Assembly (NCBI GenBank): GCA_003671055.1
Contig: QWPV01000028.1
Coordinates: 1 to 32,966 of the forward strand
Origin: Planctomycetota bacterium
GTDB taxonomy: Bacteria; Planctomycetota; Phycisphaerae; Phycisphaerales; SM1A02
Reading direction: 5' to 3'
DNA length: 32,966 nt
Every line of letters begins with the position of its first letter. Position 1 is the stretch's first letter. The notes below the pieces were generated by a model. That model did not search any database, was not told the origin of the DNA, and saw only the letters and a program-made list of their open reading frames with translations. The translations under genes and the position numbers were made by a program. Below, piece by piece: positions 153 through 28,675 of the stretch.

Positions 153-199
153 AATGCCGGCTCAGGCGAAGGCGATTCACTCGCCGAGCCGTACGAAAG
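153..199. repeat. Intergenic GAGCCGTAC motif, copy 1, with hairpin
   Basis: This segment contains AATGCCGGC (153-161) and CGAGCCGTAC (185-194) followed by GAAAG. Both blocks recur in the same order at 32742-32764, and CGAGCCGTAC also occurs at 24520-24529. All three sites are intergenic. Here the segment folds into a hairpin. GGCTC (159-163) pairs with GAGCC (186-190) and GGCGA (165-169) with TCGCC (181-185), leaving one bulged A at 164 and an 11-base loop. It lies between the GlmL-like gene and the AYTPGLKV gene, next to a second hairpin at 204-236. Confidence 0.5.
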
Positions 200-203
200 C
201 GCG

Positions 204-236
204 TGATGATTTTGCCGCTTGGGGCAGAAATCATCA
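204..236 (-). repeat. Bulged hairpin repeat with CTGCCCCAAGCGGCA core, copy 1
   Basis: TGATGATTT (204-212) pairs perfectly with AAATCATCA (228-236). Inside, TGCC (213-216) pairs with GGCA (223-226) around a 6-base loop, leaving one unpaired base at 227. Read on the minus strand the centre is CTGCCCCAAGCGGCA, identical to the centre of the hairpin at 27352-27394, while the outer stems differ. It lies 31 bases downstream of the GlmL-like stop codon and in the same sense. It could act as a terminator or an mRNA 3'-end stabiliser, but no long T tract follows, so this is not a textbook intrinsic terminator. Confidence 0.6.
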
Positions 237-240
237 GAAG

Positions 241-276
241 CGCTCAAACACGCGCTCAACTACGCCCTCAAACATG
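241..276. repeat. Imperfect 12-bp tandem repeat, three units
   Basis: Three consecutive 12-base units (241-252, 253-264, 265-276) read CGCTCAAACACG, CGCTCAACTACG and CCCTCAAACATG. They span the stop codon of the GlmL-like gene, so the last residues of that protein and its stop lie inside the repeat. The array is short and may be chance or a small slippage product. Confidence 0.4.
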
Positions 277-22655: not shown

Positions 22656-24392
22656 TTACTTCCCGCGCGAGTGTGCCTTTGCGAGTTTCACGCCGGTGAA
22701 CTTCGCGGGCGCTTTGCCGACTTGCTTCCGATCGGGCTTGCGTGGTGGCTTGCCGAAGGACTTTTCATTCGGATTCTTCTTCGCTTTCGCCTTACCCGGC
22801 GTGCGATTGCTTGAGCCAGCCCCTTGCTTGCGCGGCTTCGCTGTCGCGCTGTCCATGACATAGAAGTCGCCGGCGCCTTCGTCGGTCGGTTCCTTTTGGC
22901 TTTCCGCAAGCGTCTTTCGCGGCGGCGCGTTTTTCGCGACCATCGCTGAAGAAATCTCGCGACGGGTCGTCTTTCGTCGCTGCGTCTCTGGATTCTCGTC
23001 AGCAAGTTCAACACGCTTGCGAGCGCTGAAGGTCAGACGAATCGGCACCTCCGAGAATGGCAATTGCTCATGCAGTTGGTTCAGCAGGTACTTCGCGTAT
23101 GCACCTTCGAAGAGTTCTGGGCGATTCACAACCATGTGAATGGTTGGCGGTCGAACTGCAAGCTGCGACACATAGAAGACCTTCGCGCGAGATCCGAGAC
23201 GAGCGCTTGGACCGCGCGCCTCAAGAATGCGCGCGATCGTCGCGTTGAGTCGGCCAGTTGTTTCGCGGTGGCCCGCTTGGTTGAACAAGTTGAAGCAGAT
23301 CTTCACCATGCTCTGAATCCCATCGGACTTCTCCGCGCTGATGAAAATGATCGGCGCGTAGGAGAGACCGAAAAGTTCCTGCGTGAGGTACTCGGTGTAA
23401 TCCTCTGGAGAAAGTTCGTTCTCCACGAGATCCCACTTGTTCACGACAATTGCGGTGGGCTTGTGCTGCGTAACAAGCTCGAGTGCGAGACGCTTCTCGA
23501 TCTGCGAGACTTTTTCACGCGCGTCAAGAAGAAGGACGCACACGTCTGCTCGCTCGATCGCCGCTTGTGCGCGGTGATGCGAGTGCGTTTCGATGTCGTC
23601 GCTCCAACTCTTTCGCTTGCGCACGCCTGCGGTGTCGATAGCGACAAACGCGTGGCCGTCCATCTCGAATCGCACGTCGACACAATCGCGCGTTGTGCCT
23701 GCAATTTCCGAGACAATCACGCGAGGCTCACCCGCAAGCGAGTTGACGAGCGTGCTCTTGCCCGCGTTACGACGACCAACGATCGCCATACGCATTTCGC
23801 TCGGCGTGTCTTCGCTGCCGTGTGCGGGAAGTTCGTTCCACAACCATTCCGTGAAGATGCGTCGACCGAATCCACTCTTCGCACTCAGTGAAAGCGGTTC
23901 ACCAAATCCAAGGCGCGATGCTTCTTGCGCGGCGGGAATCCAGGTGTCATCGTCGACCTTGTTGGTCACGATGCGAACGCGGGAAGTGACGTTGCGCTGA
24001 CGAAGCAACTGCGCAATTTTTTGGTCGAGCCCCGTGATGCCAGCTTGCGCATCGACTACGAACAGAATGATGTTCGCGGTGCGGACGGCGGTCTCAATCT
24101 GCTGCTCGATCTGCGGCGTGAGCCGAGCGAGATCTTCGCCAGCGTCGTCGTATCGACCGCCCTCGGCGACATAGACGCCGAAGCCGCCGGTATCGACGAG
24201 CTCGAACGCGCGAGCATCGTCATCGGATCCAATTTCAGCTGGAGGCGGAACTTCGACAATCTGGGAAACGCGATCTCGTGTGGTTCCTGGAGTCGGGTCG
24301 ACGATCGATACCCGTCGTCCGACGAGCCTGTTGAACAGACTCGACTTACCGACGTTTGGTCGACCAACAATGGCAACAGTCGGTAGGGGCAT
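22656..24392 (-). CDS. der: Ribosome biogenesis GTPase Der with basic C-terminal tail
   Basis: Der has two GTPase domains in tandem and a KH-like domain, and is needed for 50S subunit maturation. The product is 578 residues. The first P-loop GRPNVGKSS is at 10-18, with DTGGFG and TNKVD. The second, GRRNAGKST, is at 206-214, with DTAGVRKRKSW and NKWDLVE. Usual Der proteins are about 440-490 residues. Here about 120 residues follow the KH-like domain, rich in Lys, Arg and Pro (KAKAKKNPNEKS, GKPPRKPDRKQVGKAP), probably an rRNA-contacting tail. I chose the ATG at 24392 (MPLPTVAIVGRP). The open frame continues upstream to 24557, but that part is translated intergenic repeat. Confidence 0.95.
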   Translation of the reverse strand: MPLPTVAIVGRPNVGKSSLFNRLVGRRVSIVDPTPGTTRDRVSQIVEVPPPAEIGSDDDARAFELVDTGGFGVYVAEGGRYDDAGEDLARLTPQIEQQIETAVRTANIILFVVDAQAGITGLDQKIAQLLRQRNVTSRVRIVTNKVDDDTWIPAAQEASRLGFGEPLSLSAKSGFGRRIFTEWLWNELPAHGSEDTPSEMRMAIVGRRNAGKSTLVNSLAGEPRVIVSEIAGTTRDCVDVRFEMDGHAFVAIDTAGVRKRKSWSDDIETHSHHRAQAAIERADVCVLLLDAREKVSQIEKRLALELVTQHKPTAIVVNKWDLVENELSPEDYTEYLTQELFGLSYAPIIFISAEKSDGIQSMVKICFNLFNQAGHRETTGRLNATIARILEARGPSARLGSRAKVFYVSQLAVRPPTIHMVVNRPELFEGAYAKYLLNQLHEQLPFSEVPIRLTFSARKRVELADENPETQRRKTTRREISSAMVAKNAPPRKTLAESQKEPTDEGAGDFYVMDSATAKPRKQGAGSSNRTPGKAKAKKNPNEKSFGKPPRKPDRKQVGKAPAKFTGVKLAKAHSRGK

Positions 24393-24423
24393 TGGGGGCG
24401 CGATTCTACGCGCAGCCCAATCA

Positions 24424-24594
24424 AGGACAGGCACAATTCCCGCAATTGAGGACAGGCACCAGTCAAGAGCCCGAAGCTGAGCCCAATTGCTCCCAATCGA
24501 GGACAGGCACCGATCGGTTCGAGCCGTACTACAGGACACGCAATTGAGGACAGGCACCAGTCACGCGCCCCAATCGAGGACAGGCACCGATCGG
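24424..24594. repeat. GGACAGGCACC repeat array upstream of der
   Basis: Five copies of GGACAGGCAC(C) lie at 24425, 24450, 24501, 24548 and 24578. The last four alternate between two forms: CAATTGAGGACAGGCACCAG (A) and CAATCGAGGACAGGCACCGA (B), in the order A, B, A, B. The copies are irregularly spaced (51, 47 and 30 bases between starts). The invariant AGGACAGGCAC can be the loop of a small hairpin: ATCG/CGAT in form B and ATTG/CAGT in form A. CGAGCCGTAC, seen in two other intergenic sites, occurs at 24520-24529. The array fills the gap between gpmI and der, both minus strand. I recall GGTGCCTGTCC-type repeats in other bacteria, sometimes linked with REP-associated transposases, but cannot verify it here. 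Confidence 0.85.
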
Positions 24595-27307: not shown

Positions 27308-27348
27308 CACGCGCGCCCGGAACTCCGACCCAGGTGCGCGTGTTTTTT
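27308..27348 (+). terminator. Intrinsic terminator after yggS
   Basis: CACGCGC (27308-27314) pairs with GCGCGTG (27336-27342). Six T residues follow directly (27343-27348). The position 32 bases after the yggS stop and the T tract on the plus strand fit a Rho-independent terminator for yggS. It is the clearest one in the window. Confidence 0.8.
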
Positions 27349-27351
27349 AGC

Positions 27352-27394
27352 GCGAGCGATGAATTCTGCCCCAAGCGGCAAATTCATCGCTCGC
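27352..27394 (+). repeat. Bulged hairpin repeat with CTGCCCCAAGCGGCA core, copy 2
   Basis: GCGAGCGATGAATT (27352-27365) pairs perfectly over 14 bases with AATTCATCGCTCGC (27381-27394). Inside, after one unpaired C at 27366, TGCC pairs with GGCA around CCAAGC. The core matches the minus-strand hairpin at 204-236 over 15 bases, with the same single bulge and loop, while the outer stem bases differ but still pair. It starts four bases after the yggS terminator and ends four bases before the stop of the convergent DUF1579-like gene. It may serve as that gene's 3' hairpin, since it is near-symmetric. Confidence 0.8.
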
Positions 27395-27397
27395 CAT

Positions 27398-27871
27398 TTA
27401 CACGCGCTCGTAAACGCCTTCCATGAATGGCTGCCATGCGATCGCGTCGCCAGAGACTTCCGCTTTGTATCGAATGATGCCTGCCTGACGAAGGTCCCAA
27501 CTTGTGCGCATGAATCCGCCTTGCGTGGCCTGCTGTAACACGAGGAGTCCGTGCTCGAAGGTCCCGATGAATAGCGATGGCGCGCCGCCGAAGGAATCGA
27601 ACCAGTGGAGTTCGTACTGTGACTTCTGCGCGTCGTAGCGAAACACACCGTGTCCGAAGAAACTTGCGATGTCCTCGCGGACTTGCTGGTACTCCTGCAC
27701 CACTGCGAATCCATCGAGCGATCGTGCGTTGTGGATCATGCCAATAGCACTGCCGCCCTTCGGATCCCAGGGGGATGGATGCATTGTTTCCTCGCCCTGC
27801 CAGCGACCGATGAGTGCTTCGAGCGCACGATGCGCATCAGTAGGGTCAAGCATGGCGTATGGACTGCTCAT
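27398..27871 (-). CDS. DUF1579-like protein
   Basis: The product is 157 residues. It begins MSSPYAMLDPTDAHRALEAL, then LIGRWQGEETMHPSPWDPKGG. The 'L.G.W.G.E...PSPWDP' opening, the FFGHGVFRYDAQKSQYELHWFD middle and the MRTSWDLR near the end suggest a small lipocalin-like beta barrel of the DUF1579/THAP4-heme-binding-like type. Function is unknown. The start is supported by GAGGAG at 27878-27883 with a 6-base spacer. The longer open frame to 28039 lacks such a site and has no family-like sequence. It converges on yggS and is divergent from the membrane protein gene, with 96 bases between starts. Confidence 0.8.
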   Translation of the reverse strand: MSSPYAMLDPTDAHRALEALIGRWQGEETMHPSPWDPKGGSAIGMIHNARSLDGFAVVQEYQQVREDIASFFGHGVFRYDAQKSQYELHWFDSFGGAPSLFIGTFEHGLLVLQQATQGGFMRTSWDLRQAGIIRYKAEVSGDAIAWQPFMEGVYERV

Positions 27872-27877
27872 CAAAGA

Positions 27878-27883
27878 CTCCTC
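27878..27883 (-). promoter_or_regulatory. Shine-Dalgarno GAGGAG of the DUF1579-like gene
   Basis: On the minus strand GAGGAG lies six bases before the ATG at 27871. It is among the best ribosome sites in the window and decides this start. Confidence 0.75.
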
Positions 27884-27912
27884 GTGTTGCAGGATAAAGA
27901 CGGCGCAGCGTA

Positions 27913-27961
27913 CTTCAGTCCGAGCGCGGTTGGCTGAATCTTGCAATGATTCACGCTGAAG
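27913..27961. promoter_or_regulatory. Nested inverted repeats in a divergent promoter region
   Basis: TGAATC (27935-27940) and GATTCA (27948-27953) form a perfect 6-base inverted repeat with a 7-base spacer. CTTCAG (27913-27918) and CTGAAG (27956-27961) form an outer pair. They lie between the divergent DUF1579-like and membrane protein genes. The inner pair has operator-like geometry. No promoter hexamers could be assigned with confidence. Confidence 0.3.
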
Positions 27962-27967
27962 CCTGTC

Positions 27968-28675
27968 ATGACTGAGCCAAACAAAAATCACTACGACCTC
28001 GTGCCGGATGAACCTGATGCCGACGCTGCGCGACTTCATGCTGAACGCGTCGAGCGCGCAGTTGAAGCGCAGTCACGCGCGCCCACTCCGATTCCAGCGA
28101 GCGTCGACTCGATTGATGAGGATGCTGACGACACTGACGACGAGGAGTCCAGCCTCAACGCGCCGATCTCTCCGCAGAGCGATGCGCGCACATGGATCAT
28201 CGCCGCACTCTGTGTGATTGGTGTTGTCGTGCTCGCGTGGCTTGCGGGCGCAAGCGGACTTGTGATTCCAGGCGACTCCGCCGACGCAGCGTCCACCGAC
28301 CTTTCCATCATGCAGCGACTCGGTGGAGTGATGCGAACTATTTCCTACGCTGTGCTTTCGACAGCGGGATTCACCTTCGGCATCTGCTGCCTTGCATTCG
28401 TACGACAGCGTCCGCTCGGCGATGTGCTCTCACTCTTTGCAAAGTGCGCGTTGATCTGCGCCGTTGGTCTTCTCACATGGATCGTTCCGTGCGACTTCCG
28501 TGTGCTCAAGCAATTACTCAACAGCGTCGGCCCGCTCGCCATTGCATGCGTGCTTTACATGTTTCTCTTCCGACTTCCACTGAAAGAAGCAATGCTCGCG
28601 GTTGCGTACGCCGTCCTCGGCATGGCGCTGCTCGTCTTCTTTTCTTACGCGGTCGTCTTCAGCATGCGCTTCTAG
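27968..28675 (+). CDS. Membrane protein of unknown function
   Basis: The product is 235 residues. The first 72 are hydrophilic and acidic (SVDSIDEDADDTDDEESS). Five hydrophobic helices follow: IIAALCVIGVVVLAWLAG, ISYAVLSTAGFTFGICCLA, LFAKCALICAVGLLTWIV, SVGPLAIACVLYMFLFRL and AVLGMALLVFFSYAVVF. I recognise no family. The acidic N-terminus is probably cytoplasmic. The start at 27968 is the first ATG in the frame. The 3' end overlaps the convergent NeuD-like gene by 17 bases. Confidence 0.72.
   Translation: MTEPNKNHYDLVPDEPDADAARLHAERVERAVEAQSRAPTPIPASVDSIDEDADDTDDEESSLNAPISPQSDARTWIIAALCVIGVVVLAWLAGASGLVIPGDSADAASTDLSIMQRLGGVMRTISYAVLSTAGFTFGICCLAFVRQRPLGDVLSLFAKCALICAVGLLTWIVPCDFRVLKQLLNSVGPLAIACVLYMFLFRLPLKEAMLAVAYAVLGMALLVFFSYAVVFSMRF

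Follow-up and report, generated by a model that had tools for sequence, protein, structure and literature searches.

The two hairpins at 204-236 (minus strand) and 27352-27394 (plus strand) of the window, meaning the whole stretch of 32,966 nucleotides analyzed, are probably two copies of an undescribed, genus-restricted, REP/BOX-like mosaic palindromic repeat with a trans-acting mover. The family is observed directly in the genome of the window. An earlier note on this DNA had suggested 3' structures that belong to a mobile or regulatory family. This is borne out in part: the family (43 copies) and the 3' location (16 of 25 resolved sites between convergent genes) are confirmed, and mobility is probable from the presence and absence of the hairpin at an orthologous junction.

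Hairpin A, module B and their copies

The features of the window on which the analysis turns are as follows.

213-227, minus: core CTGCCCCAAGCGGCA, exact match
27366-27380, plus: core CTGCCCCAAGCGGCA, exact match
204..236, minus: copy 1, hairpin A, with a 9-bp stem TGATGATTT/AAATCATCA, bulged C, inner stem TGCC/GGCA and loop CCAAGC
197..249, minus: copy 1, hairpin A extended to the outer AGCGC/GCGCT stem and the TTGA edge, from the alignment and covariance model R1 (83 bits, a self-included score since copy 1 is among the 41 copies used to build R1)
161..194, minus: copy 1, module B, consisting of GTACGGCTC, GGCGA-GTGAA-TCGCC and TTCGCCTGAG, from an exact pattern match at 171-193 and the alignment
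27352..27394, plus: copy 2, hairpin A without module B, with a 14-bp stem GCGAGCGATGAATT/AATTCATCGCTCGC and bulge, inner stem and loop as in copy 1
27344-27396, plus: copy 2, model match, 67.5 bits
268..2163, minus: gene with its stop ~32 bp from the copy-1 hairpin, from open frame and codon score
26326..27276, plus: gene upstream of copy 2, which we take to be a YggS/PLP-binding protein by resemblance, from open frame and codon score
27308..27348, plus: terminator-like stem with TTTTTT behind it, a separate structure located upstream of copy 2, -21.7 kcal/mol, z -3.57
27398..28039, minus: convergent gene at copy 2, from open frame, with the codon score covering 27398-27871

Folding confirmed what the earlier note had read from the letters, namely, a 15-base core, a bulge and a loop common to both hairpins, with outer stems that differ yet pair in each. 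Folded as RNA, both consist of a 6-nt loop CCAAGC, a 4-bp UGCC/GGCA helix, a bulged C and an outer stem, which is 9 bp long in copy 1 and 14 bp in copy 2. On the strands chosen in that note and with 10-nt flanks, the folding z is -5.45 for copy 1 and -6.85 for copy 2, and 0 of 200 shuffles reach the stability; the opposite strands fold too (z of -4.44 and -6.32, respectively). The module B stretch of copy 1 (146-196) folds weakly by itself (z of -1.53, 12 of 200 shuffles equal). Copy 1 represents A+B, and copy 2 (C22:27366), which lacks module B, represents A alone. Both hairpins do stand behind gene ends as had been described, copy 1 ~32 bp past a stop and copy 2 between convergent genes, where the stop of the gene at 27398..28039 falls 3 bp past the hairpin. 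Some gene ends resemble dockerin and PEP-CTERM domains, which suggests a planctomycete host of the Phycisphaerae.

The remark that these are not standard terminators stands for the hairpins themselves, with no U-tract or terminator-like match around either in a scan of both window regions, but has to be qualified at copy 2, which is preceded by the separate stem with TTTTTT. This stem was not reported by the terminator pattern scan (loops of 3 to 8), and it is kept in the sister genome G001, where the T-run is poorer. Rfam 15 gave 0 matches in the window at gathering score. An intrinsic terminator reading of hairpin A itself is not supported, as no T-run follows it in the 41 aligned copies and no terminator match was found in the two window regions.

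One shared 15-mer within 33 kb is about the chance expectation by arithmetic. The genome of the window (G000, a draft of 2.85 Mb in 100 contigs, with the window as contig C22) contains CTGCCCCAAGCGGCA in 37 exact copies and a further 5 times with one mismatch, and the reversed pattern has 0 at up to one mismatch. Neither of the grounds that the earlier note had named against its proposal, a lack of further copies or copies within coding regions unable to fold, was borne out. At up to two mismatches there are 54 core matches versus 5 for the reversed pattern. The 43 copies kept are the 42 exact and one-mismatch matches plus one two-mismatch match, C16:25557. Among the other 11 of the 12 two-mismatch matches, C24:19230, C30:23397 and C30:24598 were dropped for having no stem, and the remaining eight were not included, with 0 of 8 in the covariance model list. 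Two near-identical stretches 1.2 kb apart on contig C30 (2098 and 3299 of locus L042) carry a two-mismatch core with no stem and were dropped.

The 43 copies make up 29 sites. All 14 pairs of neighbors <300 bp apart are on the same strand, head to tail, and tandem series reach up to four units. From 41 copies (the alignments exclude two with adjacent runs of N), we built a hairpin A covariance model, which recovers all 43 at 47 bits or more and reports at least 5 further places in G000 at 32.5 to 35.1 bits with another head or none, among the 150 of 2,274 first-look candidates scored; the remaining model rows are opposite-strand matches to the same palindromes.

The consensus of hairpin A in the 41 aligned copies is TTGAGCGC-TTC-TGATGATTT-C-TGCC-CCAAGC-GGCA-AAATCATCA-C-GCGCT, in which the bulged C and TGCC/GGCA are invariant, a constancy owed in part to the collection of copies by their core. 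Module B, that is, GTACGGCTC plus a short hairpin, follows hairpin A in most copies, with the stem alleles GGCGA/TCGCC, GCGGA/TCCGC, GCCGGC, GGTGGC and GGCGGC. It is missing from four copies (C16:30548, C18, C22:27366 and C36:3520), degenerate at best in C10 and shortened in C88; in one copy the hairpin is followed by a run of N. C44 and C63:2317 have a third hairpin between A and B, and this longer hairpin (GACTGACCGCGCG...CGCGCGGTTTCGCTC) stands before module B at L113 (C44) and L114 (C63) and replaces hairpin A at L112 (C6). Both main A stem alleles were found with each of four B alleles, in a typing that left out two C40 copies with module B in the alignment, suggesting that the modules have been exchanged or changed repeatedly. 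GTAG occurs at the left edge (positions -24 to -21) in 11 of 43 copies, and in tandems the preceding unit occupies that place.

The stems vary across copies yet stay paired. For A and B together, 92.1% of cells pair (98.1% in helix A and 78.6% in helix B) versus 82.9% in shuffles, and changes on both sides affect 10 pairs versus 5.9 in shuffles, a count that 1 of 500 reaches. The covariation score is 0.214, compared with 0.084 for shuffles, of which 0 of 500 reach it, and no more than 0.055 for slid alignments; these controls leave the kinship of the copies in place. The count of A+B pair types was not above that of shuffles (238 of 500). For hairpin A with the outer stem alone, the double-changed pairs are weaker (38 of 500 shuffles reach them), still none of the 500 reaches the score, and within the outer AGCGC/GCGCT stem no pair has changed on both sides. 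The nine pairs adjoining the core comprise 387 cells: 374 Watson-Crick pairs, 3 G-T pairs and 10 mismatches.

Placement behind genes and orthologous junctions

Of 29 sites in all, 25 could be resolved (the other four are outside the count), and 16 of these are convergent, 8 co-directional and 1 divergent, as assigned by hand from RNA genes and from gene calls by a home-made codon score trained on the long frames of the window; the type given to the copy 1 site depends on a minus-strand start that we read near window position 101. The probability of 16 or more convergent sites is 4e-5 at an expected 25% and 0.0016 at one third, and removal of five weaker sites leaves 12 of 20 (P = 9e-4). We counted ~7 convergent junctions among 28 in the window, in agreement with the 25% expectation, with intergenic length unweighted. 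Six sites have the stop codon of the upstream gene at the left edge of the element, three ending at -17 and three at -21, and some copies lie behind RNA genes: tRNA-Arg(CCT), tmRNA and two tRNA-Glu. Comparison of the flanks of six single-A copies gave an 8-bp direct repeat at C16:30548 (12 of 2,000 random flank pairs) and at most 6 bp at the other five; with a direct repeat of a length that could suggest a MITE-like target duplication at 1 of 6 single copies, no duplication rule emerges from these six.

Empty sites were compared at two loci, copy 2, which was informative, and C90, which was not collinear. The copy-2 junction in G001 is collinear over ~1.5 kb at 73% identity, with the same convergent gene and terminator-like stem but without the hairpin, a difference of ~50 bp. 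The hairpin is therefore a discrete insert or deletion, that is, either inserted in G000 or deleted in G001. At the same junction G003 has ~400 bp containing other mosaic units (by eye), and the neighborhood in G002 is rearranged. Hairpin A also occupies the same place behind tRNA-Arg(CCT) in both G000 and G001 (collinear flanks of 70 to 71% identity, different heads) and behind tRNA-Gly(CCC) in both G002 and G003 (84% identity over the 295 bp compared), indicating that some copies are old or that such places are hit repeatedly. A guess that the G003 copy on C75 is located behind tmRNA was not confirmed.

Spread among relatives and the RAYT-like genes

Model matches were found in 5 of 121 genomes of the family (own included), with 48 candidates per genome scored under strict filters, and 116 of the 120 other genomes had no match among these candidates. 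There are at least 47 matches in G000 and at least 7, 20 and 15 in its same-genus sisters G001 to G003, which are drafts of 94 to 100% completeness. A genome of another genus has a single 25-bit match, the meaning of which is unsure because the exact core sits in a hairpin there. The three sister species keep the frame and have other heads, including TGC[T/G]CCAAGC[A/C]GCA and TGCCCGCAGCGGGCA. A frame pattern written for the sister forms, which does not match the main G000 form, has 2, 0, 12 and 11 matches in G000 to G003, and its reversed control has 0 in each. G002 and G003 each have one locus at which an A+B unit faces an inverted B'+A' unit (L064, 1501-1727, and L065, 1501-1736), with a different head in each half. 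No match to a 121-bp stretch of copy 1 was found in plasmids and phages, and no exact match to the 19-mer TTCTGCCCCAAGCGGCAAA in viral contigs; the GTDB collection, from which the records of the own genome may be absent, has 3 exact matches to this 19-mer, with Bacillota, Sphingomonas and Psychrobacter as the record titles, where simple arithmetic puts chance at about two.

A RAYT transposase usually accompanies GTAG REP families, and G000 encodes five RAYT-like Y1 proteins (L043, L044, L045, L046 and L091). The four that were translated are 386 to 411 amino acids long, which exceeds the 146 positions of the REP_Tyr_transpos model, and have a long C-terminal part and, in the alignment, a common HLH (HUH-type) motif; NF047646 matches all four at E values of 2e-6 to 4e-10 but below its cut-off. 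Among Y1 proteins, PMC6006769 describes subclasses that have a large C-terminal domain and no association with REPs. The flanks of four of the five RAYT loci contain another repeat, GGACAGGCAC or GGACAGGCAAGCC, and no hairpin A, and on the five RAYT contigs the only hairpin A in the model list lies ~17 kb away, on C79. The pattern GGACAGGCACMA occurs 37, 3, 0 and 0 times in G000 to G003 versus 5, 0, 0 and 0 RAYT genes, whereas hairpin A is present in all four genomes. The GGACAGGCACMA counts thus track RAYT, save for the 3 in G001; the RAYT of G000 probably belongs with this other, GGACAGGCAC/GGACAGGCAAGCC-type repeat and is an improbable mover of hairpin A. With the flanks of four loci devoid of hairpin A, contigs nearly so, and no RAYT match in three sisters that bear the element, RAYT is not supported as the mover, and these comparisons of RAYT and Y1 genes link no transposase to the hairpin A element.

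The window itself has five copies of a different repeat with GGACAGGCAC, the motif beside the RAYT-like genes, at 24416-24594. An open frame at 22656-24557 (minus strand) begins within the GGACAGGCAC repeats (24393-24557), and this GTPase-like gene more likely starts near 24392.

Comparison with known repeats and candidate explanations

REPINs are two REPs in inverted order, and the facing A+B / B'+A' units at one locus each in G002 and G003 resemble them, whereas 0 of 14 neighboring pairs are inverted in G000. PMC3733652 describes GTAG REPs with alternative complementary stems, a 3'-end location and stop codons supplied by the tag; they and their BIMEs occur singly or in clusters, for the most part where neighboring genes are co-directional or convergent, with some families confined to one species, and head-to-tail dimers are absent or rare in most genomes. 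Hairpin A is likewise a repeated extragenic palindrome with compensated stem variants (43 copies) and stop codons at the element edge (six sites), but it differs in that the unpaired terminal GTAG, which is present in >90% of members in most of those families and degenerate in some (PMC3733652), is found in 11 of 43 copies only, and in that no RAYT gene is flanked by hairpin A (four of five loci read). It shares with the CGTC-tagged REPs, as that source describes them, palindromes without an associated transposase gene; unlike them, it lacks CGTC at either edge of the consensus (41 aligned copies of hairpin A). The BOX repeats of Streptococcus pneumoniae are modular, in variable combinations, limited to few related species and thought to be parasitic (PMC3049150). 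Here, too, hairpin modules vary separately (A with or without B, a third hairpin, alleles mixed) within few related species, but the most variable part is the head of the first hairpin within a fixed frame, and the likeness is one of described architecture. Titles and abstract openings in the literature searched, largely without subscription journals, contained no such repeats in Phycisphaerae. We place the family with the REP/BOX kind, whose way of life it shares, although it departs from GTAG REPs in the two features that define them, the tag and the RAYT flanks.

Placement behind genes, stable folding, two-sided stem changes and the recurrence behind the same tRNA-Arg(CCT) in G000/G001 and the same tRNA-Gly(CCC) in G002/G003 would also suit a 3'-UTR RNA device (terminator, exonuclease block or attenuator) under transcript-level selection. 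We regard such a device as unlikely, given the lack of a U-tract or terminator match in the two window regions, stems that change by Watson-Crick swaps with few wobbles (374 versus 3 G-T pairs and 10 mismatches), the missing hairpin at the collinear G001 junction and tandems of up to four units, which are unexpected for a terminator. It is quite improbable that the copies form a GTAG-tagged REP family mobilized by the five RAYT-like Y1 proteins of G000. That explanation can draw on the genes themselves, four of which were scanned and match NF047646 below its cut-off, and on the GTAG left edge in 11 of 43 copies and edge stop codons at six sites, as in the GTAG REPs of PMC3733652, but it has to face 0 of 3 sisters with a RAYT or Y1 match despite 7, 20 and 15 hairpin A matches, four RAYT loci flanked by GGACAGGCAC or GGACAGGCAAGCC instead, with hairpin A ~17 kb off on C79, and a GGACAGGCACMA distribution (37, 3, 0, 0) that goes with RAYT except for the 3 in G001.

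A process without any transposase would have recombination and replication slippage spread and homogenize the copies while template switching between the arms repairs the palindromes. Template switching can create and repair stems (PMC8794818), and two-sided stem changes with few wobbles, mixed A/B alleles and 14 of 14 neighbors head to tail agree with it; by itself, this process leaves the dispersal to 29 sites and the discrete difference at the window junction unexplained, and we consider it very improbable. The explanation we prefer is the REP/BOX-like repeat with a trans-acting mover, the mechanism and function of which we infer as follows. The element would be a nonautonomous DNA palindrome that works like REP/BIME or BOX, mainly just behind genes, and it may be recognized in folded, single-stranded form through a putative contact at the head and bulge, the stem being needed only to pair. 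A trans-acting activity would copy or move it, and the spots behind genes would be those tolerated by selection, a tolerance that the left edge (TAG, TTGA) may help by supplying a stop codon.

More tentatively, the family could be a RAYT-free palindromic system with a fixed outer frame (GAGCGC...CTTTSGACT plus module B) in which heads are swapped per species. A hairpin-recognizing recombinase would move it, or else replication template switching alone would both spread it and preserve the palindrome. The family lives in three sisters without a RAYT or Y1 match, with its head swapped between species and its frame kept. It thereby offers a compact case for asking what else spreads short palindromes and whether selection or template switching preserves the pairing.
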